Virus record (IMG/VR): IMGVR_UViG_3300020198_000066
Span: 1 to 30,813 of that record
Origin: a virus
Reading direction: 5' to 3' (one strand)
DNA: 30,813 nucleotides
How positions within the stretch are numbered: position 1 is the first letter of the stretch; each line of letters begins with the position of its first letter. The notes below the pieces were generated by a model that saw only the letters and a list, made by a program, of their open reading frames with translations, made no database searches and was not told the origin of the DNA. The translations under genes and the position numbers were made by a program. Below are positions 1-21,216 of the stretch, one piece after another.

Positions 1-2202
1 TAATTTCGGCCCGCCCTCGGCCTGCATCTCCAGCAGCCGGACCCGCACCTGGTGGAGCTGCTCCGCCAGCGCCTGATTCTGCTCGCGCATCGCGGCCGCC
101 AGTGCCAGTTGATTGGCCTGCGCCGTCTGCGCCGCACGGTCCCGCGTCTGGCTGATCTTCTGTTCCAGGGCGAAGATAGCCTCCCGCCCCTGCACATATT
201 CCAGCGTCCCTTGCGCGCGCGTGGTTTGCGCCGCGCGTTCCACCTCGATCTGACGGGTCAGTTCGGCGGTTTCGCGTTCGGTCGCCGCCTGTTGCAGTTG
301 ATCGAGTTGGGCGTAATAGTCCCGGGCGGACAGCTCCCGGTTCTGGTAGGCCGCCTCCAGCCGCGCCGTCGTCAGCGCGTCGGCCCGCGCCGAGGCCTCC
401 ACCGAGGCTTCGCGTTGGGTCGTCTCGAAGCGGGTGGTCTCCTCCGCCAGCCGCTCGCGCTCTTGCGCGGCCTCCCGCTGCCGCTCGAACTGGTCCCGCA
501 GCCCCACGTTGTCGCCGTACTGCTCCAGCTTGCCCAGGACTCCGGGCACGTAGGCCTGAGTCTCTTTCGGGGCCCTCGCGAGCCAGTTGTCACCGTGCCG
601 CATCACCAGGCCGGTCACGCCGTTGGCCTTGCGTTCGCTGCCTTCGCCCATGTTGTAGGCGGCAATGGCTTTTTGCAGATCGCCCTTGAACAAGGCTAGC
701 AGGGTGCGGAAGTATTGGCCGGCGGCCTGGATCGACGCCTCCGCGTTGAACGGATCGCGCAGCCCGAAGCGTGCCGCCGTGCCCGGCATGAACTGCATCA
801 ACCCCTTCGCCCCCGCCGGGCTGATCGCGCGCGGATTGAAGCTGCTTTCGACATCCGCCACCGCCTTCAGCAGGCCGGGCGGCAGGCGGTATTGAGTCTC
901 GGCGGCGGTGAACGTGGCGTCGTAGGGCGTGTCATGACCGCGCCCGGACCGGCCGGAACCCGCCGCGCCCGGAGGCGTCGCCGGAGCGCCCCGACGCTGA
1001 CCGTCGAAATAGGGCTGTTGGGGTGGTTGCGATTGTCGGCGCGCGGCCAGCTCCTCCGGCGTGACCGCCTGATTGACCCCATACCGATCCATGTAGGCCT
1101 GCCGTTCGGCCAGTTGGGTGCTGGTACCGGCATTGGCTTGCAGGCTGAACAGTTCCCGGATGGCGGCGCCCGTCTTGGTGATGATATCCAGCAACAGCCC
1201 CCACCCCTGCAGCATCTTCCCCGGCAGGTACATGAGGGTCTCCATGTTCCTGGATATCAGCACGATGCCTTCGGCCAGGTCCCTGGATTTTCCGGTGGCT
1301 TGATCCGCCTCGCCAATATAGCGGGTCCATGCATTTGTAAGCTGCTGGATGGCTCCGCCGACGGTCGTCGGCAGCATGGCCGCTTCGCGTTTTAGCGTGT
1401 CCTGCTGGCTCAGGATCGCCCGAACCACCTTTTCAGACGTAAGCTCCTGAGCGTCCGCCATAGCCTTGAGCTCACCGACCGTCTTCCCCATCCCTTCGGC
1501 CAGCGCCCGCGCCAAGCGGGGAGCGCTTTCCATCACGGAGACAAACTCGTCGCCATTCAGCACGCCCTTGCCCAATGCCTGCCCGAATTGCTGCAAGGCC
1601 GAGGCGGACTCGCTCGCGCTGGCGCCCGATATCCGCAAGGCTTTGGCTACGCTATCGGTCAGGTTCAGGGCGTCCTGCTGGCTGCGCCCCAAGTCCCTCA
1701 TGGACGTGGCCAAACGGGCATAGGTCTGCGCGGTTTCGGCCAGTGGGGTCATATTGCGCTGACTGATCGCGAAAAGCTCAGTCTGTGCGCGCATCAACTC
1801 CTGCGCCGTGCCCGACACCAGTTTCAACCGGGCATTCAGATTGGCGTAGGCGTCAGCGGTCTGCGCTAACTGGCTGAGTCGTGTCCAGGCCTGCTGCACG
1901 GCGAAGATACCCGCGGCCATCCTGGCCCATAGGCCAATGGTATCCGCCAGCCCGCGCGCCTGCTTTTGGGTCGCCTGGGTGGCGCCATCCAGCGACTGCG
2001 TCAGGCGTTGCGCCCCGGTACTGGCCTGGGCCAACTTATCGGTCCAGGCTTTGGCGGCCGTCTGCTGAGCGAACTGACTGTTGAGCTTCGCCCATCCCGC
2101 ATGCAACTCGCCCAGGCTTTGCTTGAGCCGCTGCATGGACTCCACCGTCTGGCGGGAGTTGGTGGTAATCTCAATGCCGAGTTTTTGCGTCGTGTTCGCC
2201 AT
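1..2202 (-). CDS. Tape measure protein with lytic transglycosylase domain (3' end outside window)
   Basis: This frame is open for 734 codons from an ATG at 2202 to the window edge, so the C-terminus is missing. The N-terminal ~250 residues have the helical, Gln/Ala-rich look of the tape-measure N-terminal domain (LAQTADAYANLNARLKLV; ALNLTDSVAKALRISG). Residues ~433-545 form a goose-type/SLT transglycosylase: the putative catalytic Glu is E452 in DVESSFNP, followed by GLMQFMPGTA and AYNMGEG. After this comes coiled coil rich in Glu/Arg/Gln. The protein should set tail length and locally cut peptidoglycan during DNA entry. It follows the tail-assembly chaperone, the normal siphophage order. The domain calls rest on clear motifs; the rest is family knowledge. 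Confidence 0.93.
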   Translation of the reverse strand, partial: MANTTQKLGIEITTNSRQTVESMQRLKQSLGELHAGWAKLNSQFAQQTAAKAWTDKLAQASTGAQRLTQSLDGATQATQKQARGLADTIGLWARMAAGIFAVQQAWTRLSQLAQTADAYANLNARLKLVSGTAQELMRAQTELFAISQRNMTPLAETAQTYARLATSMRDLGRSQQDALNLTDSVAKALRISGASASESASALQQFGQALGKGVLNGDEFVSVMESAPRLARALAEGMGKTVGELKAMADAQELTSEKVVRAILSQQDTLKREAAMLPTTVGGAIQQLTNAWTRYIGEADQATGKSRDLAEGIVLISRNMETLMYLPGKMLQGWGLLLDIITKTGAAIRELFSLQANAGTSTQLAERQAYMDRYGVNQAVTPEELAARRQSQPPQQPYFDGQRRGAPATPPGAAGSGRSGRGHDTPYDATFTAAETQYRLPPGLLKAVADVESSFNPRAISPAGAKGLMQFMPGTAARFGLRDPFNAEASIQAAGQYFRTLLALFKGDLQKAIAAYNMGEGSERKANGVTGLVMRHGDNWLARAPKETQAYVPGVLGKLEQYGDNVGLRDQFERQREAAQERERLAEETTRFETTQREASVEASARADALTTARLEAAYQNRELSARDYYAQLDQLQQAATERETAELTRQIEVERAAQTTRAQGTLEYVQGREAIFALEQKISQTRDRAAQTAQANQLALAAAMREQNQALAEQLHQVRVRLLEMQAEGGPKL

Positions 2203-2222
2203 GTGTGTGCCTGATGTGATCG

Positions 2223-2243
2223 TTCCCACGCTTCGCGTGGGAA
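2223..2243. repeat. Short hairpin repeat (TTCCCACGC stem)
   Basis: A perfect 9-bp stem, TTCCCACGC/GCGTGGGAA, has a 3-nt loop, followed by a GACGCTCCCGCGTC tail. It resembles the host-type REP hairpins common between genes of gammaproteobacteria. It lies directly upstream of the tape measure gene on the transcribed strand, so it could act on mRNA stability or partial termination, but that is inference. Confidence 0.7.
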
Positions 2244-2334
2244 TGCGTACCCTGACGCTCCCGCGTCACCCGATGTTGCGTTTAGGAGCGGGGGCGTTCG
2301 CGGTGAGTGGAGTCGAACCGTCCCCATCGGGCCC

Positions 2335-2446
2335 TTCGACTCCGCTCAGGGCACGCCCTTCGACTCCCCCTTCGACTCCGCTCAGGGCACGCCATTCGAC
2401 TCCGCTCAGGGCACGCCCTTCGACTCCCCCTTCGATCCCGCTCAGG
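2335..2446. repeat. Tandem cluster of CCCTTCGACTCCGCTCAGGG repeats
   Basis: Several head-to-tail copies of the imperfect palindrome CTTCGACTCCGCTCAGGG fill the gap between the tail chaperone and the tape measure gene. The same unit recurs singly or in clusters at about 13110, 13335, 16350, 19240, 19570, 20355, 21590, 22045, 23800, 24395, 24690, 28430-28510 and 29980-30030, often inside genes. It looks like a multicopy REP-type element. Confidence 0.85.
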
Positions 2447-2483
2447 GCAGGACTCGGGACGGGCCGGGACGGCCCGGCGCCCA

Positions 2484-2741
2484 TTACTCGGTGACGGCAT
2501 CCCAGACGGCCTGGAAGCCCTGCATGTCCGCCTGGCTGGCCCGCAGCAACAGCAGCGTGATGCGCTGGTGTTGCCGTTCCGCGCGGGCTTCGGCGGCCAG
2601 GTAGGCGGTCATCTGCGCCAGGGTATAGTCGCCTACGTTCCGGTGGCCGGCGCGGATGAGCCGGTGACAGGCCTCGGCCCAGGCGTCCCCGGCAGGTACT
2701 GGGCCAGGGTCGTCTCCGTCAGTGGCATCATCCGCTGCACG
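2484..2741 (-). CDS. Tail assembly chaperone, -1 frame extension (gpGT-like)
   Basis: This is an open frame without its own start, ending at TAA 2484-2486. It is entered by a -1 ribosomal slip from the upstream frame at 2741-2747. The translated extension (about 85 residues, with AWAEACHRLIRAGHRNVGDY, MTAYLAAEARAERQHQ and a C-terminal VWDAVTE) has the appearance of the T part of lambda-type G/GT chaperones. The fusion product would be about 243 residues against 193 for the unshifted product. Its role would be to bring tail-tube subunits to the tape measure. The frame has no stop across the whole overlap with the upstream frame. Confidence 0.8.
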   Translation of the reverse strand, partial: RAADDATDGDDPGPVPAGDAWAEACHRLIRAGHRNVGDYTLAQMTAYLAAEARAERQHQRITLLLLRASQADMQGFQAVWDAVTE

Positions 2742-3214
2742 AAAAAATCGGCGTTCACCCGGAACACCACCACCGCCAGCCGCGTCAGGTCATCCAGGAA
2801 CAACTCACCCACCCAGGCCGCGGGCCGGTCCAGGGCCACGGCCAGCGCCGGGATCAGCGCCGGCGCGTAGTCGCGGACCAGGCCCGCCCACCAGGCGGGT
2901 TCCGGCTCCTCGGGCAGCGCCCGGCGGACGTGCTCATAGGCCTCCAGCACCGGGGCCATGGCCGCCGCGAAGGGCGCCAACTGGCGCACCCGCAAGGGCC
3001 ACACTTCCACCGTTTCGCCGGCCACGTCGAGCCGCTCCGGCTCCGGGAATAGAGTGGATAGTGATGAGTGGCTAGTGGCTAGTGAAGCAGGGTTTTGCTG
3101 GCCCCTAATCACTAACCCCTCTCCACTGCCCTGCTGGCCACTATCCACTATTCCCTGTCCACTGCCCGGCTGACCACTATCCACTAGCCCCTGTTCACTA
3201 TTCCCGCCCATCAT
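2633..3214 (-). CDS. Tail assembly chaperone, G-like (0-frame product)
   Basis: A 193-residue frame sits between the tail-tube and tape measure genes, the usual place for the G protein. The ATG at 3214 overlaps the stop of the tail-tube gene (ATGA), suggesting translational coupling. Residues ~1-55 are Ser/Gly/Gln-rich and are simply a translation of a heptad repeat array. The convincing protein begins near PEPERLDVAGETVEVWPLR and continues with a helical core. There is no second ATG after the array, so either the array is translated or a non-ATG start inside it is used. The frame contains a T TTT TTC slippery site at 2741-2747. Confidence 0.82.
   Translation of the reverse strand: MMGGNSEQGLVDSGQPGSGQGIVDSGQQGSGEGLVIRGQQNPASLATSHSSLSTLFPEPERLDVAGETVEVWPLRVRQLAPFAAAMAPVLEAYEHVRRALPEEPEPAWWAGLVRDYAPALIPALAVALDRPAAWVGELFLDDLTRLAVVVFRVNADFFVQRMMPLTETTLAQYLPGTPGPRPVTGSSAPATGT
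2741..2747 (-). other. Programmed -1 frameshift site (T TTT TTC)
   Basis: On the minus strand the codons GAT TTT TTC contain the heptamer T_TTT_TTC in the X_XXY_YYZ register needed for tandem -1 slippage. Slipping here joins the 0-frame chaperone to an open -1 frame that reaches 2484. Siphophages commonly make the long tail chaperone this way. Confidence 0.78.
3057..3200. repeat. Heptad-repeat hairpin element 1 (inside chaperone ORF)
   Basis: TAGTGG-type units lie on the left, a core GAAGCAGGGTTTTGCTGG sits near 3083-3100, and CCACTA-type units lie on the right. The arms are inverted relative to each other and can pair. It is read in frame as the N-terminus of the chaperone. Confidence 0.8.
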
Positions 3215-3999
3215 GCCGCCACCGCCCGGCCGTCGATGTAGACCGCCGCCAGTTCACCGGAGGCCTGGAAGCGGCACTTGAAGCCGAACTCCTGCACCTT
3301 GCCGTCCTGCTGGCCGCGCTTGATCTGCACCGAACCATCGGCCCGCAGCACCACCTTGGGCGCGTACAGGTCGCGGTTCACGCCGCTGGTGTTGGCCGCG
3401 ATCATCCGCAGCGCCCCGGTCAGCCGCGCCGCCAGGTCCGGCGTCGCCGTGTGCTGGGTACGGGTGCGCAGGGTCGTGGCGTAGTCCACCCGCAGGTTGG
3501 TCCCCGCCGTGATGGCCCCGCCCGGCACGATGTAGAGCCGGCCCAGTTCCAGATCGACGGTGTAGTCGTCGGTCACGTCGAAGGTCACGGGCATCGGCGA
3601 CGCGTCGTCGGTCACCACCACGGTGGTGATATCGCGCACGCCGGTCGGGTTCGGCGCGCTCACGCCGAGCTGGTAATAGACGCCTTGCGCCACGTCATCG
3701 AAGGCCTCGTTGGTGACCGAGCCCGCCGTTTGCGACAGGGTCGCCGGATCGGCGCCGAAGAACCAATCGACGACCGCGTCGCTGGGGTTGATGCACTTGA
3801 ACGACACTTCGCGCGCCATGCCGAACGGGATCTCGTCGATCAGTTCGGACACCGGCGCGTCCGAGCCGTAGACCTCGACCGACTTGATATCGACGCTCAG
3901 CTCCGCGCCGGGGGTTTCGCCGAAATACTGCTCGGCGACGCCGGGGGCCTGCGCGAAAAACAGCTTACCGGCGGGGATGATGAATACGTTGTTGGCCAT
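3211..3999 (-). CDS. Major tail tube protein
   Basis: This is a 262-residue beta-rich protein with a good ribosome site (AGGAGCCCCTC before the ATG). It starts MANNVFIIPAGKLFFAQAPG. Its whole length is closely repeated in the C-terminal ~255 residues of the protein encoded at 4569-6221: both contain GETPGAELS, VEVYGSDAPVSELIDE, FKC(I/V)NPSD and end in YIDGRAVA. Its position just before the tail chaperones and tape measure, together with its size, points to the tube subunit of a non-contractile tail. Assignment as tube rather than another tail protein is by context and similarity to tail proteins of B3/D3112-type transposable siphophages. Confidence 0.78.
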   Translation of the reverse strand: MANNVFIIPAGKLFFAQAPGVAEQYFGETPGAELSVDIKSVEVYGSDAPVSELIDEIPFGMAREVSFKCINPSDAVVDWFFGADPATLSQTAGSVTNEAFDDVAQGVYYQLGVSAPNPTGVRDITTVVVTDDASPMPVTFDVTDDYTVDLELGRLYIVPGGAITAGTNLRVDYATTLRTRTQHTATPDLAARLTGALRMIAANTSGVNRDLYAPKVVLRADGSVQIKRGQQDGKVQEFGFKCRFQASGELAAVYIDGRAVAA

Positions 4000-4010
4000 G
4001 AGGGGCTCCT

Positions 4011-4046
4011 GGTTAGTGGTTAGTGGTTAGTGGTTAGTGGTTAGTA
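4011..4046. repeat. Tandem heptamer GGTTAGT array
   Basis: About five uninterrupted GGTTAGT units separate the tail tube gene from the upstream small gene. No inverted partner arm or core is present here. Confidence 0.85.
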
Positions 4047-4253
4047 GGCGGTTGGGATCGGTTCAGGTTCCGGCGCAGGCTCCGGCGCGGCCTGAAGGCC
4101 GCTCCTACGGGCGGACTTGGGTCGCTCCACGAGCTTGGCCACGCCCAGTTCCTGGAGCCAAGCGACCTGGCGGTCGGTGACCGTGAGGCGCTGCCCAGGC
4201 TCGCAGGCCTGACCGGCGTGGGTGTGGGGTTGTAACAGTTCGATCTCGGGCAT
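4041..4253 (-). CDS. Small conserved phage protein (DUF7210-like)
   Basis: A 70-residue protein starts MPEIELLQPHTHAGQACEPG and continues with VTDRQVAWLQELGVAKL. This matches the short phage family that reads as a single small beta/alpha module (HTHAG, then a helix ending in LG/QGVA). GGAGGTTCTC precedes the ATG. The last ~25 residues (SARRSGLQAAPEPAPEPEP) come from a REP-type sequence, a palindromic GGCCTGAAGGCC hairpin at about 4089-4105, so the natural protein may have been shorter. Function is unknown; homologues sit among head and tail genes. Confidence 0.7.
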   Translation of the reverse strand: MPEIELLQPHTHAGQACEPGQRLTVTDRQVAWLQELGVAKLVERPKSARRSGLQAAPEPAPEPEPIPTAY

Positions 4254-4287
4254 GAGAACCTCCGAAGTAGTGGATAGTGAATAGTGG

Positions 4288-4572
4288 CTAGTGATTAGCT
4301 GCTTTTGCCTGCCGATGCATTAAACATCCCTCCATCTCGCGCCGCGCAATCGCCCCGTGCAAAACCTCGAACCGATCCATCTCCTCCATCATCCGCGTCG
4401 CCGGCAGGCGCCCGAGGTACTCCGCCGCGCGCCGAAACCGCTCCCGAGCCGCCGCCCGCTCCACCGCCCAGCGCGCTTCCCGCGCCTGAAAATCCGCATC
4501 GTCCACGTGGCCCCAGAAGGAGCCGGGCCGTCCCGGCCCGATGGGGGCGGGACGCCCCCGCTCCATCCTCAT
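4288..4572 (-). CDS. Hypothetical helical protein with REP-encoded N-terminus
   Basis: A 94-residue frame has its ATG overlapping the stop of the LamG-tail-tube gene (ATGA). Residues ~4-18 (ERGRPAPIGPGRPGS) are a literal translation of the GC-rich hairpin repeat at 4519-4564. The remainder is a charged helix (DADFQAREARWAVERAAARE; RMMEEMDRFEVLHGAIARRE). Its place between two tail-tube genes suggests a small tail-related protein, but no family is recognised. The coupling and the amphipathic helix argue that it is translated. Confidence 0.55.
   Translation of the reverse strand: MRMERGRPAPIGPGRPGSFWGHVDDADFQAREARWAVERAAARERFRRAAEYLGRLPATRMMEEMDRFEVLHGAIARREMEGCLMHRQAKAANH
4519..4564. repeat. 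GC-rich double hairpin repeat (GGGACGCCCCCGCTCC family)
   Basis: Two adjacent palindromes, GCCGGGCCGTCCCGGC and GGGGGCGGGACGCCCCC, form a 46-bp unit. Near copies occur at 7758-7802, 19545-19613, 21069-21116 and, partially, 25784-25804. Here it is read in frame in the small gene at 4288-4572. Confidence 0.85.
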
Positions 4573-6221
4573 GCCACCGCCCTCCCGTCGATATACAGCG
4601 CGGCCCGGTCGTCCAGCCGCTGGAAGCGGGCCTTGAAGCCTAGCTCCAGGAGCTGGCCATCCTGATACGCGCGCTTCAGCCGCACCGCGCCATCCGCCCG
4701 CAGCACCACGCGGGGCACGAAGATGTCCCGATTCGTCCCGCTGGTGTTGTGGGCGATAAAGCGCAGGGAACCACTCAGGCGCGGCAGCAGCCAGTTGGCG
4801 CCCTGGTGGCGGGTACGGGTGGCCGCCGCGCGGGTGTAATCGACCAACAGGGTCGTCCCGTCGGCGATGGTCCCGCCCGGCGCGACGTACAGCCGGCCCA
4901 GGGTCGGGTCCACCGTGTAATCCCGGCCCGCCACGAAGACCGTGGGCGTGGGCTCGGCGTCGTCGGTCACCGTCACGGCGGAGACCAGGCGCACCCCGGT
5001 AGGATTGCTGGCCGTCCGGCCCAGTTGATACCAGCGGCCGGGCTCCACGGCGGCGAGGCTCTCGCCCGTCACCGCGCCCGCCGTCTGCGTGATCAGACCC
5101 CGATCGGCGCCGAAGAACGCGCTCACCACCTCATCGGACGGGTTGACGCACTTGAACGCCAGCTCGCGCGAAACCCCGAACGGGACCTCGTCGATCAATT
5201 CCGACACCGGCGCGTCCGATCCGTACACCTCCACGGTGCGCAGATCGATACTCAACTCCGCCCCCGGCGTCTCGCCCAGGTAGCGCTCACCGGCGCCCTG
5301 ATCGAAAAACAACCGGCCGGCGGGGATGACGCAGCGAAGGGGCGCCGGCACGACGCCTATGGCGGGGGCGCTCCACAGCGCGCAGGAACTGAGGACCGAG
5401 ACCGTCAACCGCGCCGCCCGCGCCTCGGCCGGCGCCCAGCCGCGCCAGCGCAAATGGCCCGTGGTCGGCGCGGCGGTGCGCGGGGTCAGCGCGGGACTGA
5501 GGACCGAGACCGCCAACTTGACGGCCCGCGCCTCGGCCGGCGGGCCGGTATCCGGGAACGGTGCGGTGGGCGGGGTGAAGGCGGCGGTATAACGGGCGAT
5601 GCCTTGGGTGATGCGCAGGTCGTCGATGTAGCCACTAACGGTCTGCCCGCCTGCGGCGCTACCCGCCATGATGGAAAACTGCCCGGTGATGCCGATAGCA
5701 TTGGTTCCCACCGTCGCCGGTGTCCCCGCCACGCCATTCTTGTATAGGGTCAGCGTCGTCCCGGATCGCACCAGCGCCAGGTGTTGCCAAACATTCATCG
5801 ACAGCGACAACCCGGTTACATGCCCCACAATAGCCCACCCATTGGCGGCCGCATTGGCGATGTAAAGTTGTAAATCCCCATTCGCGTTGGCGGATACCAG
5901 GAGTGGGCCGCCAAAGGCGCTCATGGAACTCCGATGCGCCCAGAGCGTGACATACCCCGCGGGCACGGACCCGGCCGGACAGTAGACCCATGCCTCAATC
6001 GTAAAATCGTTCGCGCCAAAGCCGCCGATGGGCGCGGTCAGCCAGTCAGCCCCGGAAAAATACCCGCTCGCCCCAAACTTCGCCTGCGCCGTCGAAATCT
6101 TGGCATTGCCATTGGCCGTCACCGCATGCGCGTACTGGCTGGTGTCGGTAAACGTGGTGCTGCCGTTGCTCCCGTCGCAGTGCAGGAGCAGACTGACATT
6201 ACCGTAGTGCGGGTCGGACAT
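4569..6221 (-). CDS. LamG/concanavalin-like domain fused to a second tail tube domain
   Basis: This 550-residue protein has two parts. Residues ~5-225 form a LamG-type jelly roll (SLLLHCDGSNGSTTFTD, DFTIEAWVYCP, WQHLALVRSG, GYIDDLRITQGIARYTAAF). Residues ~295-550 repeat the whole tail tube protein of 3211-3999. The linker carries a direct repeat (PAEARAVKLAVSVLS / PAEARAARLTVSVLS). A plausible role is a decorated tail tube subunit or tail-tip protein exposing a sugar-binding domain, like tube proteins of other siphophages that carry Ig-like decorations. The domain boundaries are seen in sequence; the decoration role is inferred. Confidence 0.85.
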   Translation of the reverse strand: MSDPHYGNVSLLLHCDGSNGSTTFTDTSQYAHAVTANGNAKISTAQAKFGASGYFSGADWLTAPIGGFGANDFTIEAWVYCPAGSVPAGYVTLWAHRSSMSAFGGPLLVSANANGDLQLYIANAAANGWAIVGHVTGLSLSMNVWQHLALVRSGTTLTLYKNGVAGTPATVGTNAIGITGQFSIMAGSAAGGQTVSGYIDDLRITQGIARYTAAFTPPTAPFPDTGPPAEARAVKLAVSVLSPALTPRTAAPTTGHLRWRGWAPAEARAARLTVSVLSSCALWSAPAIGVVPAPLRCVIPAGRLFFDQGAGERYLGETPGAELSIDLRTVEVYGSDAPVSELIDEVPFGVSRELAFKCVNPSDEVVSAFFGADRGLITQTAGAVTGESLAAVEPGRWYQLGRTASNPTGVRLVSAVTVTDDAEPTPTVFVAGRDYTVDPTLGRLYVAPGGTIADGTTLLVDYTRAAATRTRHQGANWLLPRLSGSLRFIAHNTSGTNRDIFVPRVVLRADGAVRLKRAYQDGQLLELGFKARFQRLDDRAALYIDGRAVA

Positions 6222-6222
6222 A

Positions 6223-7248
6223 TCAGAGTTTGACCCTGAAACCCGCCCGCAGGGCGTTGACCGCGCTCAACGTCCAGGCCGCGCTGGTGGCCGGATCGGT
6301 TTGCCGGATCTGCGTCAGCGCGGCATTCGTTTGCGCCAGCGTCAACGGGCTGGATTCCGCCTCGGCGTCACCCCGTTTCAGCACCGCCGCCACCGCCCGG
6401 GCGCCGGCGCTGTCCTTCACCAGGACCGAACGCGCGCAGACGCCGTGAATGGTGTCCGGTTCATGCGCCAGCGGGGCCGCGGTAAACAGCGCGGTCGCCT
6501 CGTCCACGCTGGAGGCGATATAGCCATCCCCCGCATTTAGCCTTTCCCAGGCATTGCCGCTGCTGGGCGTCCAGTCCTGCGGCGTGGCGTCGGCGGTCAG
6601 CGGCAGACGGTCCACCCGCGAATCCCCCAACCAGACCAATTCATCCCCATAATTCACATAGAGATCATCGACGTAGATTTGATGCTGCACGCCGCCGCCG
6701 CCGAGGCCGACGATGTGAATGGCATCCACGGCGGGCGTGGCGCCGGTCTGGGTGTCGCCGGTATTGGCGGGCACGTAGCCCTGGCTGGACCCGTTCACGC
6801 GCAACTCATAACTGCCGCCGGCATTCGCCACGAACAGGCCCAGCTCCAGGAAAATCCAGGCGTCGCGAGGCAGGGTCTGCGTGCTTTGCGCCACTTGAGC
6901 GCCGCCGGCATACAGCGTCATGACCTGGGATTCCTGCAAGGCCACCTGCGCATGAACTTGACCGCCCCCCAGCAACCGCACCACCATCGGGCCGGAGAAA
7001 AACCCCGTCTGATTCATGCGCAGGGCCACGCCCAGCACCACATGACTGGAGGCGGCAATGCTGAACTTGAGGCCCCCGTCATAGGCCGTGGCGATCTTGA
7101 CGCACTTGCCGCCGCGCCGGCCGCCGGTCGCCAAGACCGAGACCAACTGATCGCCCCAGCTATCCGCCGTTGGGGAATACCCATACAGGTTCAGGTCCGC
7201 ATAGCTGGCGCAATCTTCAAACCCGTCAAAAAACAGTTGGTGGGCCAT
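6223..7248 (-). CDS. Lectin-like phage structural protein
   Basis: This is a 341-residue protein. I choose the start at MAHQLFFDGFED because GAGG precedes it and the upstream in-frame sequence is only the antisense of the neighbouring gene. Residues ~1-210 look like a concanavalin-type jelly roll (FDGFEDCASYADLNLYGYSP; GKCVKIATAYDGGLKFSI; IYVDDLYVNYGDE). The C-terminal ~130 residues (DATPQDWTPSSGNAWERLN, MARS-type helical tail) match the style of phage tail proteins placed near fibres. It abuts the LamG-tail-tube gene with 1 nt between them and may be its partner on the virion. No enzymatic motif is seen. Confidence 0.7.
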   Translation of the reverse strand: MAHQLFFDGFEDCASYADLNLYGYSPTADSWGDQLVSVLATGGRRGGKCVKIATAYDGGLKFSIAASSHVVLGVALRMNQTGFFSGPMVVRLLGGGQVHAQVALQESQVMTLYAGGAQVAQSTQTLPRDAWIFLELGLFVANAGGSYELRVNGSSQGYVPANTGDTQTGATPAVDAIHIVGLGGGGVQHQIYVDDLYVNYGDELVWLGDSRVDRLPLTADATPQDWTPSSGNAWERLNAGDGYIASSVDEATALFTAAPLAHEPDTIHGVCARSVLVKDSAGARAVAAVLKRGDAEAESSPLTLAQTNAALTQIRQTDPATSAAWTLSAVNALRAGFRVKL

Positions 7249-7256
7249 GGGTCGCC

Positions 7257-7715
7257 TCAGGTCACGTCGAACCAGCCATCGGCCGGGCAGTGCGCGGACA
7301 GGGTATTGCCCGCGGTGGTGGCCGGCTTGTCGGCCGGCGTGGCATCGGCCAGGAAGCAGCCGAGTAGCGGACTGGCATAGCCCCACAGACTGCCGGCCAC
7401 ATAGAGCACCCCATAGCGCCAGGCCGGGATTGGCCCGCCCGTCGCGGTCCACACCACGCTGTCGCTGGCCAGCTTGAAGCCGCCCTCGATCGCCGTCTTG
7501 GCGACCGCCGCCAAGGTCGCGCCGCCCGCCGTGTAGCCATTGCCGGCGGCGATCTCATGCGTCGAGATATCCGCCCAGACCGCGTCGCCGTCCGTGGCGG
7601 TGTCCGGGACATAGGCGGACGACAGCAGGGCCAGCTTCAGGGTGGCGCCCAGCAGCGCGTTGATGTTCAAATCCTCCTTATGGGCGGAATACAGGATGAC
7701 GGCGCCAGCGGGCAT
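7257..7715 (-). CDS. Conserved phage structural protein, unknown role
   Basis: A 152-residue, beta-rich, low-charge protein with small residues throughout (ALLSSAYVPDTATDGDAVWA; EIAAGNGYTAGGATLAAVAK). GAGGATATCCC precedes the ATG. Proteins of this type, with the GYTxGG signature, occur in structural modules of many siphophages. It is encoded just before the lectin-like protein and overlaps nothing. It may be a minor virion or fibre-associated protein; evidence is context plus general resemblance. Confidence 0.6.
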   Translation of the reverse strand: MPAGAVILYSAHKEDLNINALLGATLKLALLSSAYVPDTATDGDAVWADISTHEIAAGNGYTAGGATLAAVAKTAIEGGFKLASDSVVWTATGGPIPAWRYGVLYVAGSLWGYASPLLGCFLADATPADKPATTAGNTLSAHCPADGWFDVT

Positions 7716-7757
7716 GGGATATCCTCAAAAGGTTAGGGGTAGTGGGTAGTGGTTAGT

Positions 7758-7802
7758 GGAGCGGGGGCGTCCCGCCCCCACGGGCCGGGACGGCCCGGCT
7801 CC
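7758..7802. repeat. GC-rich double hairpin repeat
   Basis: Second copy of the GGAGCGGGGGCGTCCCGCCC... unit in inverse orientation to the copy at 4519-4564. Short TAGTGGT units lie next to it at 7737-7757. It fills the gap between the genes at 7257-7715 and 7802-8188. Confidence 0.85.
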
Positions 7803-8188
7803 TAGCCTAAACACAACACGCCCTTCAGCGCGAAGCGCAGCGAGGCCACGCACAGCGCCTGGTCGGGCGTCACGCCCTCGTTCAATTCGATCAACAGCGC
7901 CCGGCCCGACCACGGCGCCGGCAGCGTCAGGGGTTGCCGCAGCAAGTCCAGCAGCAAGGGCTCCACGGCCAGCGCGTGGGGCGTCTTCGCGTACAACTCC
8001 GCCACCGCCTCGCCGTCCAGCACCACCGGCGGCGGGGGCGACTCCCAGCTATCCGTTTGCGGCAGCGGGAACGGCAGCCGGGTCAGGAACACCGGCACCC
8101 GCTCGCCGTCCCAGATATCACCCACCAGGCTCGGCACCGTGGCCAGCGCCCGGGCCGTCAACTGCTCCGACAGCGACTGTTGCAACAT
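7802..8188 (-). CDS. Hypothetical phage protein, possible tail completion protein
   Basis: A 128-residue protein starting MLQQSLSEQLTARALATVPS. AGGAGAATAACC precedes the ATG, and that ribosome site lies in the last codons of the holin gene, so the two are probably coupled. The sequence alternates helices and short strands (WSGRALLIELNEGVTPDQAL). No family is recognised with certainty. Size and position between head connector-type genes and tail genes fit a neck or tail-completion protein. Confidence 0.5.
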   Translation of the reverse strand: MLQQSLSEQLTARALATVPSLVGDIWDGERVPVFLTRLPFPLPQTDSWESPPPPVVLDGEAVAELYAKTPHALAVEPLLLDLLRQPLTLPAPWSGRALLIELNEGVTPDQALCVASLRFALKGVLCLG

Positions 8189-8190
8189 GG

Positions 8191-8514
8191 TTATTCTCCT
8201 GGCTCGAAGCGCTTCAGTCGGGCTTCTATGTAGGTTTCAACCTTGAACAGCAGTCTGGAGCCCATATGCCCGGACACGGCGACGAGGGCGGCCGTGGTCA
8301 CCTGGTGGATATGCGCCGACTCCGCCATCCAGAACGTAATCAGCCCGACCAAAATGGACGTGGCGATCTCCCCCACGAATTCGACGATATTGAAGCAGCG
8401 CGTGTGACCCTCTCGACATTTGCGCCAGAAGCTCACCACCCCCCCCCAGATCGATAAAATCAGGACCCATGCATAGGTCATGATCGGGTATTGTTCAGGA
8501 CCGGCGTCATGCAT
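8191..8514 (-). CDS. Holin, LydA-like (holin superfamily III type)
   Basis: This is a 107-residue membrane protein. After a short N-terminus come three hydrophobic stretches: WVLILSIWGGVVSF, GEIATSILVGLITFWMAESA and TTAALVAVSGHMGSRLLF. The pattern IWGG-VSF-R, FNIVEFVGEIATS and GHMGSR is that of LydA-like phage holins. It should permeabilise the inner membrane at lysis. The likely partner endolysin (M15 peptidase) is encoded 7 kb away on the other strand, so the lysis genes are split. An alternative start is the Met at 8481. Confidence 0.82.
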   Translation of the reverse strand: MHDAGPEQYPIMTYAWVLILSIWGGVVSFWRKCREGHTRCFNIVEFVGEIATSILVGLITFWMAESAHIHQVTTAALVAVSGHMGSRLLFKVETYIEARLKRFEPGE

Positions 8515-8578
8515 TTCAGTTTTCAGTTTTCAGTTTTCAGTTTTGGGTTTTCACTAAAAACCAAAAACCCAAAACACA
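8510..8578. repeat. Heptamer TTTTCAG tandem array
   Basis: Four to five perfect TTTTCAG units are followed by TTTTGGGTTTTCACTAAAAACCAAAAACCCAAAA, whose halves are complementary. This is a sequence variant of the 7-nt arrays seen elsewhere and fills the gap upstream of the holin. Confidence 0.8.
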
Positions 8579-8582
8579 TTCT

Positions 8583-9020
8583 TCACAGGCCCACCCAGGT
8601 AAACCGCCCGCCATGCGCCACGCTGGGGGCGTCCGTGGCGTCTGGCGTCAAGGCGTCCACCAGCCGCCGGTAGCGCTCATCCTGGCGCTCGGCCAGCGTC
8701 AGCGCCTCGGCCGCCGTCAGAAACTCAAAGTCCGCGTTACCCACCAGCCGCCCCACCCGCGCCGCCCCGTCCACCGTGAAGCTGTGCAGGAACGGCAGCG
8801 CCAGGGCATAGGCCCGCGCCAGCCGCGCCTCGGCCCACGCGGCGGTCTGCCCTTCTGGCGCGGCGGTCAGCCCGGTATCCCGTTGCAGATCCCGCAGCGC
8901 CGCCGCCAGATGCACGGCCAGGAAGTCCTCCGGCACCTCCGTCGTCCACCGCGCGTAGGCCCGCAGCGCGACGACGTCGGGATTCGGTACGGGCGCGATG
9001 GGGTTGACAGGCTCACTCAT
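8583..9020 (-). CDS. Head-tail connector-type protein, putative
   Basis: A 145-residue, strongly helical protein (AVHLAAALRDLQRDTGL; AAWAEARLARAYALALPFLH; EALTLAERQDERYRRLVDAL). Such all-helical proteins of ~140 residues downstream of the capsid gene are usually gp6-like connector subunits; that is the basis of the call. It lies two genes downstream of the major capsid gene. No clear Shine-Dalgarno sequence is seen before the ATG, which is directly preceded by repeat sequence. Confidence 0.5.
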   Translation of the reverse strand: MSEPVNPIAPVPNPDVVALRAYARWTTEVPEDFLAVHLAAALRDLQRDTGLTAAPEGQTAAWAEARLARAYALALPFLHSFTVDGAARVGRLVGNADFEFLTAAEALTLAERQDERYRRLVDALTPDATDAPSVAHGGRFTWVGL

Positions 9021-9026
9021 GGGCTA

Positions 9027-9108
9027 AAACAAAGTGGCTAGTGACGAGTGGCTAGTGGCTAGTAAAGAAGGGTTTCGCTATCCACTAATCACTAACCACT
9101 ATTCACTG
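9027..9108. repeat. Heptad-repeat hairpin element 2
   Basis: TAGTGGC units, core AAAGAAGGGTTTCGCT near 9063-9078, then ATCCACTA/ACCACTA units in inverse orientation. It occupies the whole gap between two structural genes. Confidence 0.85.
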
Positions 9109-9110
9109 CT

Positions 9111-9491
9111 CTACGCCGGCCACGCCGTCAGTTCCAGGCTCAACGCCGTCTGCGCCGTGGCGCCATTGGTGAACAGCACCCGCACCCAGCGCGCCGTCGG
9201 CCGCGCCGACAGCACCATCGCCGTGCCGCTCGCCGGGCTCTCCGCCAGCGCGCCGCCGGCCGCCGCCGGGCAGGTCACCCAGGTCGGGGTCTCGGCCTCG
9301 CCATTGTGGGCCTGCTGAATCAGCAGCGTTTCGCCCACACTCGCCGCGCCGCGCTTCACCGCGGTCAGTTCGCGGAAGCTGTGCTCCCGCCCCAAATCCA
9401 TCACCAACGCGCTGTTCGCGCCCGAGATGGCCAAGGCGCCCACCGCCAGGCGCCGGTGCGCCGTCATGTTAGAAAGGGCATTACGTTTCAT
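9111..9491 (-). CDS. Small beta-rich phage protein, unknown
   Basis: A 126-residue protein starting MKRNALSNMTAHRRLAVGAL and ending ALSLELTAWPA. Alternating polar/hydrophobic residues suggest an all-beta fold. It is encoded immediately downstream of the major capsid gene, the place where head decoration or capsid-fibre proteins often sit, but no family is recognised. Heptad repeat elements border it on both sides. Confidence 0.5.
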   Translation of the reverse strand: MKRNALSNMTAHRRLAVGALAISGANSALVMDLGREHSFRELTAVKRGAASVGETLLIQQAHNGEAETPTWVTCPAAAGGALAESPASGTAMVLSARPTARWVRVLFTNGATAQTALSLELTAWPA

Positions 9492-9493
9492 AA

Positions 9494-9645
9494 ATAGTGA
9501 TTAGTGGTTAGTGATTAGTGGATAGAACAGTGATGAGTGGCTAGTAGGTAGTGGGGAGTAGTGGCTAGTGGATAGAAAAACAGGATTTACTGTTCACTAT
9601 TCACTAGTCCCTATCCACTGCCCTGCTATCCACTATCCACGCGGG
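9494..9645. repeat. Heptad-repeat hairpin element 3
   Basis: A long array with TAGTGG-type left arm, core GAAAAACAGGATTTACTG near 9572-9590 and a CCACTA-type right arm. From about 9530 to 9640 it is almost identical to element 13 at 23145-23245, which points to a recent copying event. Confidence 0.88.
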
Positions 9646-9655
9646 CTAAAGCCCG

Positions 9656-10618
9656 CTACGCCACGCGGCCCAGGACCACGGCGTTCTTCTGGGCGATCTC
9701 GAAATCCACCCACATTTGCCAGGTAAACTGGAAGCAGGACAGCCGCGGCTTATCCTCGACCGAGCGGCGGATATCCATGGCGATGCCATAGACCAGGTTA
9801 CGGGGATCGGTCATCAACACCGTTTGCTCCGGGAACACCGACTGATCCAGGATCGGATAGGTCACCAGCGCGCTGGCCCGCTCGTTGGCGATGGCCGAGA
9901 CGCCCGTCACATGCTGGCCGATCTCGATCGCGTACTTGTCGCGGTCCACCGTGTTGCAGATGAACTGCGCGTTGCGGCGATGGCGCGCGCTCATCGGCTC
10001 CAGCACCTTATCCAGGGTATCGATCCAGCCATCATTGGTCGGGTCGATGGTCACCTTCTGTACCAGGAGGGAATCGGCGGCCAGCGCCAGCCAGCCATCG
10101 TTCAGCACCAGGAAGTCATGATCGCCGCCGGCCGCCGCGCCCTCGTCGCCGTTGAAGGCCAGGTCGGTCAAATCCTCCTGGATCTCCGACACGAAGGCCG
10201 CCTCCAGCTCGGTGCGCAGGTTCGGGTTATCCTGGTTATCGACGAAGAAGCTATACCCGATATCCACCGGCAGCTTCACCGGCTTCGCCGTCAGCTTGTA
10301 GTTGGCGTTGGTCACCCCGGCCGTGCTCGCCGGCTCGGATCCCTCGGCCCACGTCTGCAACCGACGCTTGCCCCGCCCCAGCACCCCGCCCTCGGCGGTG
10401 GTCCGCGCCATGCGGCGGGTCGTCACCCGTTGCAGGAACGGGTCGGCGAAAATATCCGTGATGAAGGCGTTTGCCGTCTCCGGAATCAGCGTCCCGCCGA
10501 AGCGGATATCGCTCGGCCCCACCAGCCCCTTGGCGCACGCGACCAAGGTCGCCAGCCCTTCTGACTTGTGGATATTCACCAACCGCTGCATTTCATCGTG
10601 AGTATTCAAGTGTTTCAT
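9656..10618 (-). CDS. Major capsid protein, P2 gpN-like HK97 fold
   Basis: A 320-residue protein with the P2-family capsid layout: a leader helix, then FADPFLQRVTTRRM, KLPVDIGYSFFVDN, a central TIDPTNDGWIDTLDKVLEPM segment, YPILDQSVFPEQTVLMTDPR and a C-terminal MWVDFEIAQKNAVVLG strand. It would form the icosahedral shell. The order protease/scaffold, then capsid, is standard. The capsid is P2-type although the replication module is Mu-type. The start is preceded by unusual palindromes rather than a clear ribosome site. Confidence 0.85.
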   Translation of the reverse strand: MKHLNTHDEMQRLVNIHKSEGLATLVACAKGLVGPSDIRFGGTLIPETANAFITDIFADPFLQRVTTRRMARTTAEGGVLGRGKRRLQTWAEGSEPASTAGVTNANYKLTAKPVKLPVDIGYSFFVDNQDNPNLRTELEAAFVSEIQEDLTDLAFNGDEGAAAGGDHDFLVLNDGWLALAADSLLVQKVTIDPTNDGWIDTLDKVLEPMSARHRRNAQFICNTVDRDKYAIEIGQHVTGVSAIANERASALVTYPILDQSVFPEQTVLMTDPRNLVYGIAMDIRRSVEDKPRLSCFQFTWQMWVDFEIAQKNAVVLGRVA

Positions 10619-10693
10619 GCTTATGGACCCGTTTAGCGCCGTTTAGCGGCGACGATTTACATTAGAGTGACCCTACCCTACCGGGTAGGCTGT
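10619..10693. promoter_or_regulatory. Palindrome cluster upstream of capsid gene
   Basis: Two compact inverted repeats occur: CGCCGTTTAGCGGCG (5-bp stem) near 10636-10650, and CCTACCGGGTAGG, a perfect 6-bp palindrome around one base, near 10677-10690. They could be a transcript hairpin or operator. Nothing in the sequence decides between these. Confidence 0.35.
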
Positions 10694-10771
10694 AAAAGTG
10701 GATAGTGGGCAGTGGCTAGTGAAGAAAGGATTTTGCTATCCACTATTCACTAACCCCTATCCACTACCCGG
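10694..10771. repeat. Heptad-repeat hairpin element 4
   Basis: GTGGATAGTGG-type left arm, core GAAGAAAGGATTTTGCT near 10719-10737, CCACTA-type right arm. It fills the gap between the capsid and the protease/scaffold gene. Confidence 0.85.
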
Positions 10772-11635
10772 CTAATCGAACAACGACGCCTTGACCAGCG
10801 TCTCGCCGCCGCCCGCGCCGGACTCATCGCTCCCCTTGTGCAGCGCCTCGTTGACTTGCCGGGTCAAGTCCGCCACCGCCTTTTTCAGGTCGGCCAACTC
10901 CTGGGCCTTCGCCGCTTGCTCGGCGTCCGCCGCCTCGGCGCTCTTTTGCGCCGCCAGCGTGGCCGCCACCAGGGCGGGAATCTCGCTCTTCAACAAGGTT
11001 GTTATATCGTCTTCGTTCATCGGGGTCTCCTGAGAAGTGGATAGTGGATAGTGGTCAGGGGTCGGGGGCCGCGCGGCCTTGCCCAGCCAGCGCATGAACC
11101 AAGTGGGTAGTGGAGAGTGGCTAGTGTCTAGCGAAGAAAGGTTTTTCTGGCCACTAGCCACTATCTCCTGTCCACTATTCTCATAGCGGGCCATGCCCGC
11201 CAAACTCAGCCCGGTCAGCTCGCCCGCTTCCAGGCGCGCCCACAGTTCCGGGTCGTAAATCTGAATACCCACCGCCCAGGCGCCGTCCGGCTCCTCGGGA
11301 AACAGCGGGTCGCCCGAGCGCACCAGCCAGCTTTCCGCCACGCCGGCCAGCTCCGTGCTGAAGCTGTGCTCCACATCCACGTTGCTCTGGTTGTACTCAC
11401 GCAGGAAGCGCGTCGCCGCCCGGCGGATCACCGCCGCGTCGGCCGTGTCGCCCTGGCTGTCCACCTCGCCCGGCGCGTAGACGATGCCGTACACCCGCTG
11501 CAAGGCCGCGTCCATCTTGCGCACCGCGAAGCACGTCGCCCGCTGGCCTTCAGCCCGCAGAATGACCGACTTGCCGGTCGCCGGCCGCTTGACCAGGGAA
11601 ATGAACGTCACGTGTAGATCGGTAATCAGGCCCAT
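10772..11635 (-). CDS. XkdF-like prohead protease with scaffold-like C-terminus
   Basis: A 287-residue protein. Residues ~45-150 match the XkdF-type phage protease (VYGIVYAPGEVDSQGDTADA, NVDVEHSF, GVAESWLV, GAWAVGIQIYDPELW, GELTGLSLAG). Residues ~205-287 are a coiled-coil, Ala/Lys/Glu-rich tail typical of scaffolds (AAKAQELADLKKAVADLTRQ) ending in SLFD. Between them, residues ~155-200 are encoded by a heptad repeat element. An internal ATG at about 11020 (MNEDDITTLLK) could give a separate scaffold, as nested starts do in other phages. It would direct capsid assembly and then cleave. Confidence 0.83.
   Translation of the reverse strand: MGLITDLHVTFISLVKRPATGKSVILRAEGQRATCFAVRKMDAALQRVYGIVYAPGEVDSQGDTADAAVIRRAATRFLREYNQSNVDVEHSFSTELAGVAESWLVRSGDPLFPEEPDGAWAVGIQIYDPELWARLEAGELTGLSLAGMARYENSGQEIVASGQKNLSSLDTSHSPLPTWFMRWLGKAARPPTPDHYPLSTSQETPMNEDDITTLLKSEIPALVAATLAAQKSAEAADAEQAAKAQELADLKKAVADLTRQVNEALHKGSDESGAGGGETLVKASLFD
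11100..11180. repeat. Heptad-repeat hairpin element 5 (inside protease/scaffold gene)
   Basis: TAGTGG units, core GAAGAAAGGTTTTTCTGG near 11132-11150, CCACTA units. The reading frame stays open through it, adding a linker (SGQKNLSSLDTSHSPLP) between the protease and scaffold parts. Confidence 0.8.
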
Positions 11636-11644
11636 AGCGAGGAA

Positions 11645-11763
11645 GTGATTAGTGATTAGTGATTAGTGGTTAGTGGTTAGTGGTTAGTGGTTAGTGGTTA
11701 GTGGTTAGTGGTTAGTGGTTAGTAAGAAGGTTTTTGCTAGTCACTAGCCACTAGCCACTGCCC
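11645..11763. repeat. Heptad-repeat hairpin element 6 (long GGTTAGT array)
   Basis: Roughly ten TTAGTGG/TTAGTGA units in tandem, core AAGAAGGTTTTTGCT near 11725-11740, and a shorter CTAGCCACTAGCCACTG right arm. It lies in the divergent gap between the protease gene (-) and the portal gene (+). Confidence 0.9.
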
Positions 11764-11862: not shown

Positions 11863-13068
11863 ATGGAACCCAATGTCAAAGTCCTCAAGTCCTTCCTCCC
11901 GGCGCCGGCCGGGCTGGGCCAGCTCTGGCGGCCGTATGGCGCCACCGTCGACGGCGCCATCGCCTGGCCGCGCGACCCCTACGCGCTGCTGACCTTCTAC
12001 ACCGCCAGCGCCGAACACGCCCGCGCCATCCACGTCCGCGCCAGCGCCGCCTTCGGCAATGGCGTGACCGGCGACCAGGCCGAGCGGCTCGAAGCCCTCT
12101 GCCCCACCGGCGCCGCCGACCTCTTCATGAGCCTGGCGATCGACTACGGGGCCTTTGGCAATGCCTTCCTCTACGCCGGTCCCTTGGGGCTGGAGCGGCG
12201 CCCGGCCCTGACCATGAGCCGTCACGCCAGCGGCGGTTATATCCAGACGCTGTACGATCCCCAGGGCAATCACCAGACCGTCTTCTACAAGGAGGCGGAG
12301 ATCATCCACATCAAAGCCCCCTGTCCGGCCGGGCACTGGTACAGCCTGCCGGAATGGGCCGGCGGTTGGGGCATGCTGGAACTGATCCAGGCCGCCACCG
12401 ACTACAACCGCGAATTCTTCCGCAATCACGGCCTGCCCCAGTACGCCATCGTCACCTATGGCGCCAAGCTCAGCCCGGACGAGGAAACGGCCGTGCAGAA
12501 CTTCTTCTCCAGCACCTACAAGGGCCCCGGCAACCAGCACAAGACGCTTTACCTGCACTGTGACGACCCCCAGCACGGCAAGGTGGAATTCCAGAAGCTG
12601 ACCGACACGAAGGACGGCGACTTCCTCAAGCTGCTCGACGCCGCGCGGGATCGCATCGCCATCGCCCACGGCGTCCCGCCCCGGCTGCTCGGCATCGTCA
12701 GCGCCGGCAGCCTCGGCGGGGGCGGGGAAGCCACGGCCCAGATCCACATCTTCGAAGAAGTCGTCAACAAGCCCATGCGCACCCGCTTCATGGGCGCCCT
12801 ACGGCCGCTGTTGCAGCGCCTGGGGCTGGACTGGCGCGCCCTGAACTTCGCCGGCATGGACCTAACTCCGCCCGAAGGTGACCGCGCCAACAGCGACCAC
12901 CTGACCGAATGGCTCACCGCCGGCCTCATCGATCTCGACGAAGCCCGCGCCATGCTCCAGCTCCCGACGCGCCCGGCGCCAGCGCGCAAGAGCGCCGACC
13001 GTTCGGCTCCGCTCACGGCAAGCCGCGAGCCACTCCAGGGCCTGCTCGCCGCACTGGAACGGCTGTAG
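11863..13068 (+). CDS. Portal protein, P2 gpQ / PBSX family
   Basis: A 401-residue protein with the features of P2-type portals: DPYALLTFYTASAEHARAIH near the N-terminus, YGAFGNAFLY, FYKEAEIIHIKAP, the YGLPEW-like SLPEWAGGW motif, DYNREFFRNHGLPQYAI, RDRIAIAHGVPPRLLGIV, and a C-terminal helix before a repeat-derived tail (RKSADRSAPLTAS). It forms the dodecameric DNA gate of the head and works with the terminase encoded next. It is the first gene of a plus-strand block inside an otherwise minus-strand phage. Mu itself uses an unrelated DUF935 portal. Confidence 0.9.
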   Translation: MEPNVKVLKSFLPAPAGLGQLWRPYGATVDGAIAWPRDPYALLTFYTASAEHARAIHVRASAAFGNGVTGDQAERLEALCPTGAADLFMSLAIDYGAFGNAFLYAGPLGLERRPALTMSRHASGGYIQTLYDPQGNHQTVFYKEAEIIHIKAPCPAGHWYSLPEWAGGWGMLELIQAATDYNREFFRNHGLPQYAIVTYGAKLSPDEETAVQNFFSSTYKGPGNQHKTLYLHCDDPQHGKVEFQKLTDTKDGDFLKLLDAARDRIAIAHGVPPRLLGIVSAGSLGGGGEATAQIHIFEEVVNKPMRTRFMGALRPLLQRLGLDWRALNFAGMDLTPPEGDRANSDHLTEWLTAGLIDLDEARAMLQLPTRPAPARKSADRSAPLTASREPLQGLLAALERL

Positions 13069-21063: not shown

Positions 21064-21216
21064 TTAGCGGGGAGCCGGGCCGTCTCGGCCCGGAGGGGAC
21101 GGGACGCCCCCGCTCCTACGGGCGATGTTCCAGGCCAGCCAGGCGATGAGGCCGGGAATCAACATCAACGCGACGGGGCGAACAATCGGGCCGGAAGCGA
21201 GAAACAGATCAAGCAT
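21064..21216 (-). CDS. Tiny membrane protein (50 aa)
   Basis: A 50-codon frame beginning MLDLFLASGPIVRPVALMLI. One hydrophobic helix (PVALMLIPGLIAWLAW) is followed by ARR and a tail (SGGVPSPPGRDGPAPR) encoded by the GC-rich hairpin repeat at 21069-21116, which also supplies the stop region. TAGGAGACGACC gives a strong ribosome site before the ATG at 21216. Function is unknown. With the two genes downstream of gam it makes three tiny membrane genes in 1.1 kb. Confidence 0.6.
   Translation of the reverse strand: MLDLFLASGPIVRPVALMLIPGLIAWLAWNIARRSGGVPSPPGRDGPAPR

Follow-up and report, generated by a model that had tools for sequence, protein, structure and literature searches.

Paralogous tail tube genes, one of them fused to a LamG domain, in a Mu-like transposable siphovirus

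Background

The tail tube protein of phage YSD1 (YSD1_22; PDB 6XGR; phrog_807) is encoded by one gene, and every subunit carries a C-terminal immunoglobulin-like (Ig-like) domain. Its N-terminal arm faces the head, touches domain 2 of the neighbouring subunit and is required for ring assembly, with no rings formed when residues 1–8 are deleted, and a hairpin that points tipward makes 93% of the ring-ring contact (PMC7385642). Here, we describe two tube genes in a single virus, IMG/VR record IMGVR_UViG_3300020198_000066 (positions 1–30,813; this whole stretch of 30,813 bp is called the window, and the coordinates below refer to it). Both tube domains are homologous to YSD1_22, including its inserted domain 2 and inter-ring hairpin, but neither gene encodes an Ig domain, and one of the products, P2, carries an N-terminal LamG domain that is absent from the other, P1.

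In phage SPP1, the tube protein gp17.1* is made by frameshifting, at a ratio of roughly 3:1. SPP1 has two tube proteins (gp17.1 and gp17.1*; cited in PMC8718954), as this virus has P1 and P2, but from one gene and with a C-terminal FN3 domain that is optional for infection. In lactococcal 936 phages, a fraction of the major tail proteins, TpeX, carries a carbohydrate-binding module, much as P2 carries LamG; TpeX decorates the tail and its extension binds host cells (PMC6669499). However, TpeX arises from a programmed frameshift and its module is C-terminal and of BppA type, and the likeness to P2 would be a functional one. The transposable siphophage JBD30 (Casadabanvirus) has no separate tail terminator, and a loop of its tube accommodates the hairpin from the adjacent ring; unlike in this virus, one major tail protein is described, with an internal Ig-like domain as decoration (PMC11445458). 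JBD30 gp44 has the same fold as P1 (8rk3; template modelling (TM) score 0.58).

Like this virus, Rhizobium phage RHph_X2_30 holds a second phrog_807 tube paralogue in one genome, with the usual tube at 39834–40604 and the second at 27302–28039 (MW980061.1, 27143–28054; QXV73584.1, annotated as hypothetical). This second tube is placed after the tail assembly genes, beside an endolysin gene and a 663-aa protein, and differs from P2 in that no LamG was found in it and it has a C-terminal extension of ~45 aa. Tube paralogues therefore occur elsewhere, in an unfused form.

Fold of the two tube proteins

P1, the undecorated tail tube (major tail) protein, is encoded at 3211–3999 (minus strand; 262 aa), and matched phrog_807 (“major tail protein with Ig-like domain”) with an E-value of 3.5e-29 and the YSD1 and Chi tail tube structures (6xgr/8vhx) with 4e-25. 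P2 is a LamG-linker-tube fusion at 4569–6221 (minus strand; 550 aa), whose tube domain comprises residues 294–550 (4572–5342, minus strand); residues 307–521 matched phrog_807 (3e-33) and PDB 6xgr (7e-18). A profile built from 47 tube sequences covers residues 4–275 of 6XGR, that is, both domains of the solved protein, with an E-value of 1.4e-91, and matches the JBD30 major tail protein weakly (E-value 0.0053).

In the AlphaFold2 model of P1, the mean predicted local distance difference test score (pLDDT) is 91.7, and the top match by Foldseek is 6XGR (TM 0.77), followed by Chi tail chains and JBD30. The tube part of P2, which was modelled from a shallow alignment, has the same top matches and opens with a short N-arm strand at 295–299. 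The two models thus gave a tube fold for P1, and LamG, a disordered linker and a tube for P2. Sequence profile, AlphaFold/Foldseek and tree agree that the region common to P1 and P2 is the Chi/YSD1 major-tail-protein fold. An earlier note on this DNA, made from the letters alone, had proposed a duplicated tube gene with one copy fused to a lectin-like domain, and the tube fold on which that proposal depends is borne out by the phrog_807, 6XGR and Foldseek matches.

In the alignment, acidic residues of the YSD1 lumen lining are missing from both copies (K/R in place of E47 and S/A in place of D243), and this tail may have a lumen with less negative charge.

Duplication of the tube gene

Residues 298–550 of P2 align with residues 7–261 of P1 at 61% identity (E-value 8e-101; 253–255 residues or codons). 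The earlier claim that the C-terminus of P2 repeats the whole 262-aa tube was slightly overstated, as the first ~6 residues of P1, which belong to the N-arm, are unmatched. In the maximum-likelihood tree of the 47 tubes, P1 and the P2 tube domain are sisters (support 100/100), and each has an end branch of 0.36. The next branches are the tubes of two collected loci, L043 and L045; a near relative of the latter, L121, lies in a Sulfuriferula genome. Judged from these sequences, P2 arose by duplication of P1 within this virus lineage, as had been proposed from the two open reading frames (ORFs).

At 32 nearly invariant positions of the family, both copies conform in 22 and both depart in 7, and departures of a single copy are few (2 in P1 and 1 in P2). 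The shared departures indicate that the duplication postdates the lineage's own changes in hairpin and body. Since dN (0.32; nonsynonymous divergence) is lower than dS (0.64; synonymous divergence) between the copies over 255 codons, and copy-specific departures are few, neither copy looks degenerating.

LamG domain, linker and tail-module context

Residues 56–204 of P2 matched Pfam Laminin_G_3 (PF13385) with an E-value of 1.2e-15 and 58.4 bits, against a gathering cutoff of 27.6, and the same Pfam search gave no LamG match in P1; the lectin-like domain read from the sequence earlier is therefore present on one copy only. The LamG/ConA-like jelly roll takes up residues 1–226 (5544–6221, minus strand), with AlphaFold2 pLDDT mostly >80 and Foldseek matches to jelly rolls such as 5hon_A. 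Its closest relatives outside the virus are LamG proteins of phages (~41%). LamG and tube are separate domains joined by a disordered tether of ~67 residues (residues 227–293; 5343–5543, minus strand; AlphaFold2 pLDDT 26–36 at residues 231–290), and the placement of the domains in the P2 model is meaningless because the full-length predicted TM score is low (0.48).

The linker contains a repeat, PAEARAVKLAVSVLS (unit 1; 5496–5540, minus strand) and PAEARAARLTVSVLS (unit 2; 5388–5432, minus strand), with 12 of 15 residues identical, 47 nt at 87% and a period of 36 residues; none of 1000 shuffles was as good. By its sequence, it is a small tandem duplication of linker DNA. The earlier note had taken this unit as a trace of how the fusion grew: the repeat is real, but the way in which LamG met the tube is not thereby shown. 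Among the tube and LamG loci collected, no relatives of the linker were found outside P2, and a Loktanella match into the linker was rejected as a tube frame read through upstream stops, not homology.

Directly upstream of P2 lies P0003 (6223–7248, minus strand), a phrog_2448 protein, and its upstream neighbour is a phrog_644 protein (7257–7715, minus strand; 1.4e-10). Homologues of phrog_2448 lie in tail-tip or fibre clusters of Brevundimonas and Caulobacter phages: a Brevundimonas phage has one in a tail cluster, separated by one gene from a “lectin-like domain protein”, and in Caulobacter phage phiCbK a homologue is flanked by tail genes and endolysin. The capsid protein of Vibrio phage V-YDF132 is a distant relative of that of this virus, and in that phage LamG is encoded a few genes after the tape measure. 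These neighbourhoods indicate that LamG is a usual part of phage tail modules, and what is unusual here is its union with a tube subunit. Two candidate counterparts of the gene arrangement were discarded: a phrog_644 and LamG cassette shared with the L045 tube, since the neighbours in L045 are of other families (phrog_240 etc.), and the CrLKS3 cassette between connector and terminator, which is analogous in position but of different families.

A second virus record and the rarity of the fusion

Record IMGVR_UViG_3300020221_000330 (12,287 bp) is 99.9% identical to 2487–11577 of the window (9,091 bp, 9 mismatches) and encodes both P1 and P2 at 100% identity. It is nevertheless a different virus, with another N-terminal tape-measure sequence, and identity resumes at window position 925. 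An assembly or sequencing artefact could be suspected from a fusion first seen in a single metagenomic record, and the tape-measure region does differ between the two records; with the identical fusion carried by a distinct virus over those 9,091 bp, next to another tape measure, we consider an artefact highly improbable.

Before the shared transglycosylase part, the tape measures have N-terminal parts of ~430 aa in the window (926–2486) and ~715 aa in the second record (9092–11589). From the sequences, a block appears to have been swapped, which would alter the tail length.

Profile scans of IMG/VR, one scan of GTDB species contigs and other loci gave 111 distinct tube sequences, with each IMG/VR scan contributing its best 80 of 129–146 matches. 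Among these 111, LamG on a tube, or a second tube in the fetched locus, was found only in this virus and its near-identical twin, and the search for other phages with such a fusion, suggested in the earlier note, yielded nothing beyond the twin. N-terminally extended tube ORFs in three loci (L100–L102) were set aside, as the extension is reading frame before the normal start (inspected in L100). In 50,697 phage records, no place covered 80% of P2. Tubes were found in 7 of 369 gammaproteobacterial genomes, in open frames of 264–327 aa, which are too short for a LamG fusion. A BFVD search matched LamG and tube proteins, in an output without query ranges, so that a fusion among them is possible. 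Searches by capsid or P0003 for relatives of the whole virus gave only IMGVR_UViG_3300020221_000330, and no tube-LamG protein or duplicated tube gene was met in those parts of the literature that were searched, which is not proof of absence.

Gene layout and expression

The carrier, from its gene content, is a Mu-like transposable siphovirus, with a phrog_310 transposase (2.9e-51), a MuB-like phrog_296 protein (4e-11), a Gam-like phrog_491 protein (3.9e-56) and siphovirus tail genes. P1 is followed directly by the tail assembly chaperone (phrog_1442; 2633–3214, minus strand; 1.7e-28) and then the tape measure, as is expected for a tail tube gene. P2 lies upstream of P1 in the direction of transcription, with two small ORFs between them (4288–4572, and another starting near 4253), and its start is 1 nt past the stop of P0003 (TGATATG: TGA, T, ATG).

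The Shine-Dalgarno sequence is good for P1 (-6.6 kcal/mol) and weak for P2 (-3.3), which is compatible with less P2 than P1 being expressed. However, no P2:P1 ratio can be read from these values because the major capsid gene is equally weak (-3.2). The weaker signal, the restriction to two near-identical viruses and an altered N-arm (below) would fit a P2 that is a decaying or non-virion by-product of the duplication, with no role in the particle. Such a reading seems quite unlikely: a weak Shine-Dalgarno is not a sign of low expression in view of the capsid gene, the P2 start adjoins the upstream stop, 550 codons are open with dN below dS, the P2 end branch is no longer than that of P1, and the hairpin is kept.

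Several other features were observed in the window. The start of the chaperone ORF (3060–3214, minus strand) reads through an array of TAACCAC-type repeats (MMGGNSEQGLVDSGQPGSGQGIVDSGQQGS...), so that ~40 residues lie outside the family profile. Many intergenic sites hold tandemly repeated TAACCAC heptamers and related CACTA repeats, often just before starts (e.g. 4014–4041 and 11664–11720), and a 28-base stretch of the TAACCAC motif was found in none of the 369 gammaproteobacterial genomes. GC-rich intergenic elements of ~46 bp occur around 4518–4565, 7757–7803 and 21071–21116. A holin gene (phrog_785, 1.1e-19) is located at 8191–8514 (minus strand), inside the head-tail connector region. The portal and large terminase genes (11863–13068 and 13270–14955) are on the plus strand, opposite to the genes for head morphogenesis, protease, capsid and tail (minus strand); there may be an inversion or a misassembly in the region from about 11.8 to 17 kb.

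Where P2 might sit in the tail

The inter-ring beta-hairpin of P2 (residues 326–350; 5172–5246, minus strand; P1 counterpart 3817–3891) was mapped from YSD1 residues 45–69. It departs strongly from the family in both copies, but is 80% identical and 100% similar between them, in line with or above equally diverged pairs (mean 0.68). Such likeness is what one would expect of two copies that interlock with a common partner. In the N-arm, P2 keeps 1 of 4 aligned positions, compared with a mean of 0.74 for like-diverged pairs, of which 1% are as low; in residues 183–195, the headward loop region, 5 of 13 are kept (mean 0.62; 4% of pairs as low). These regional values are hints, because the columns are few, the pairs are related, loop flanks weigh more in the comparison pairs, and the loop was mapped onto P1 by strand order from JBD30. 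The pattern would be consistent with P2 docking onto P1 rings through its tipward face, and with its headward face meeting something else or simply making room for the tether.

Considering the fold, the duplication, the architecture and the conservation in a second virus, P2 is probably a paralogous tube subunit that co-assembles in the tail, with LamG outside as an accessory adhesin. In the proposed course, P1 was duplicated in the lineage, and the P2 copy would have been joined, via the ~67-residue tether at its N-arm, to a LamG domain of tail-fibre type. The P2 tube domain would retain the ring- and stack-forming surfaces, which would allow co-assembly with P1. LamG could hang outside the tube since the N-arm of YSD1 is headward and outward-reaching and the 67-residue tether is flexible, and in that place it might serve the virus as an accessory adhesin that binds glycans on the host surface. 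We infer in this way that P2 would be in virions, that it would mix with P1, and that LamG would lie outside the tube and bind glycans.

Several points weigh against the co-assembling adhesin. The LamG-tube architecture is known from two nearly identical viruses only, and sugar binding is not universal among LamG domains. The low conservation of the N-arm counts here too: as its conserved residues are lost and YSD1 needs residues 1–8, P2 may not assemble alone.

By its sequence, one specialised ring is as compatible with P2 as decoration along the tail. The ring could be a single head-proximal one, a LamG-bearing collar (or neck ring) that may stand in for the tail terminator, with P2 not scattered along the tube; this has an appreciable chance, though we think it rather unlikely. 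In favour of such a ring, the P2 gene lies upstream of P1, at the location of the terminator gene in Chi-like phages, and the N-terminus of P2 would point headward. P1 and P2 also share a conserved tipward hairpin, in contrast to their diverged N-arm and headward loop. No tested gene of the region matched a terminator family, and JBD30 manages without a separate one (PMC11445458). But the divergence test has few columns, non-independent pairs and a JBD30-derived loop mapping, gene order predicts position only poorly, and a terminator may go unrecognised: 7802–8188 and 8583–9020 are suitably placed and of no known family. In a bolder form, to which we give somewhat less credence, the tube paralogue would have evolved into a dedicated head-end collar that bears lectin-like LamG arms on its headward N-termini, perhaps replacing the terminator, and a polymer subunit would have become a cap and adhesin carrier.

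At the other end of the tail, P2 could form a tip or fibre-anchoring ring, serving near the baseplate as an adaptor to which receptor-binding domains attach. The placement of the second tube of RHph_X2_30 downstream of tail assembly genes, beside the endolysin and the 663-aa protein, and the relatives of phrog_2448 in tail-tip and fibre clusters would suit such a ring. We find it improbable, as P2 is encoded upstream of tube and tape measure and not among the tip genes, which are beyond the window edge.

Implications

The idea of a decorated subunit is already known from other phages, and the combination of a duplicated gene with a lectin-like domain at the front end was found in this lineage only. 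P1 and P2 fall outside the frameshift-made decorated tubes: these have one gene and a C-terminal extension, as opposed to the gene pair and N-terminal extension of this virus. Decoration seems to have been reached through gene duplication and N-terminal domain fusion instead of frameshifting. A mixed decorated tail, with P2 among P1 subunits, is plausible; if it is true, a closed helical polymer tolerates an N-terminal extension of ~290 residues on some of its subunits. At 61% identity, the two copies would represent a stage at which the inter-ring interface is still common to both, and with just two genes involved, P1 and P2 may offer a simple system for studying how a tail sorts its tube paralogues.

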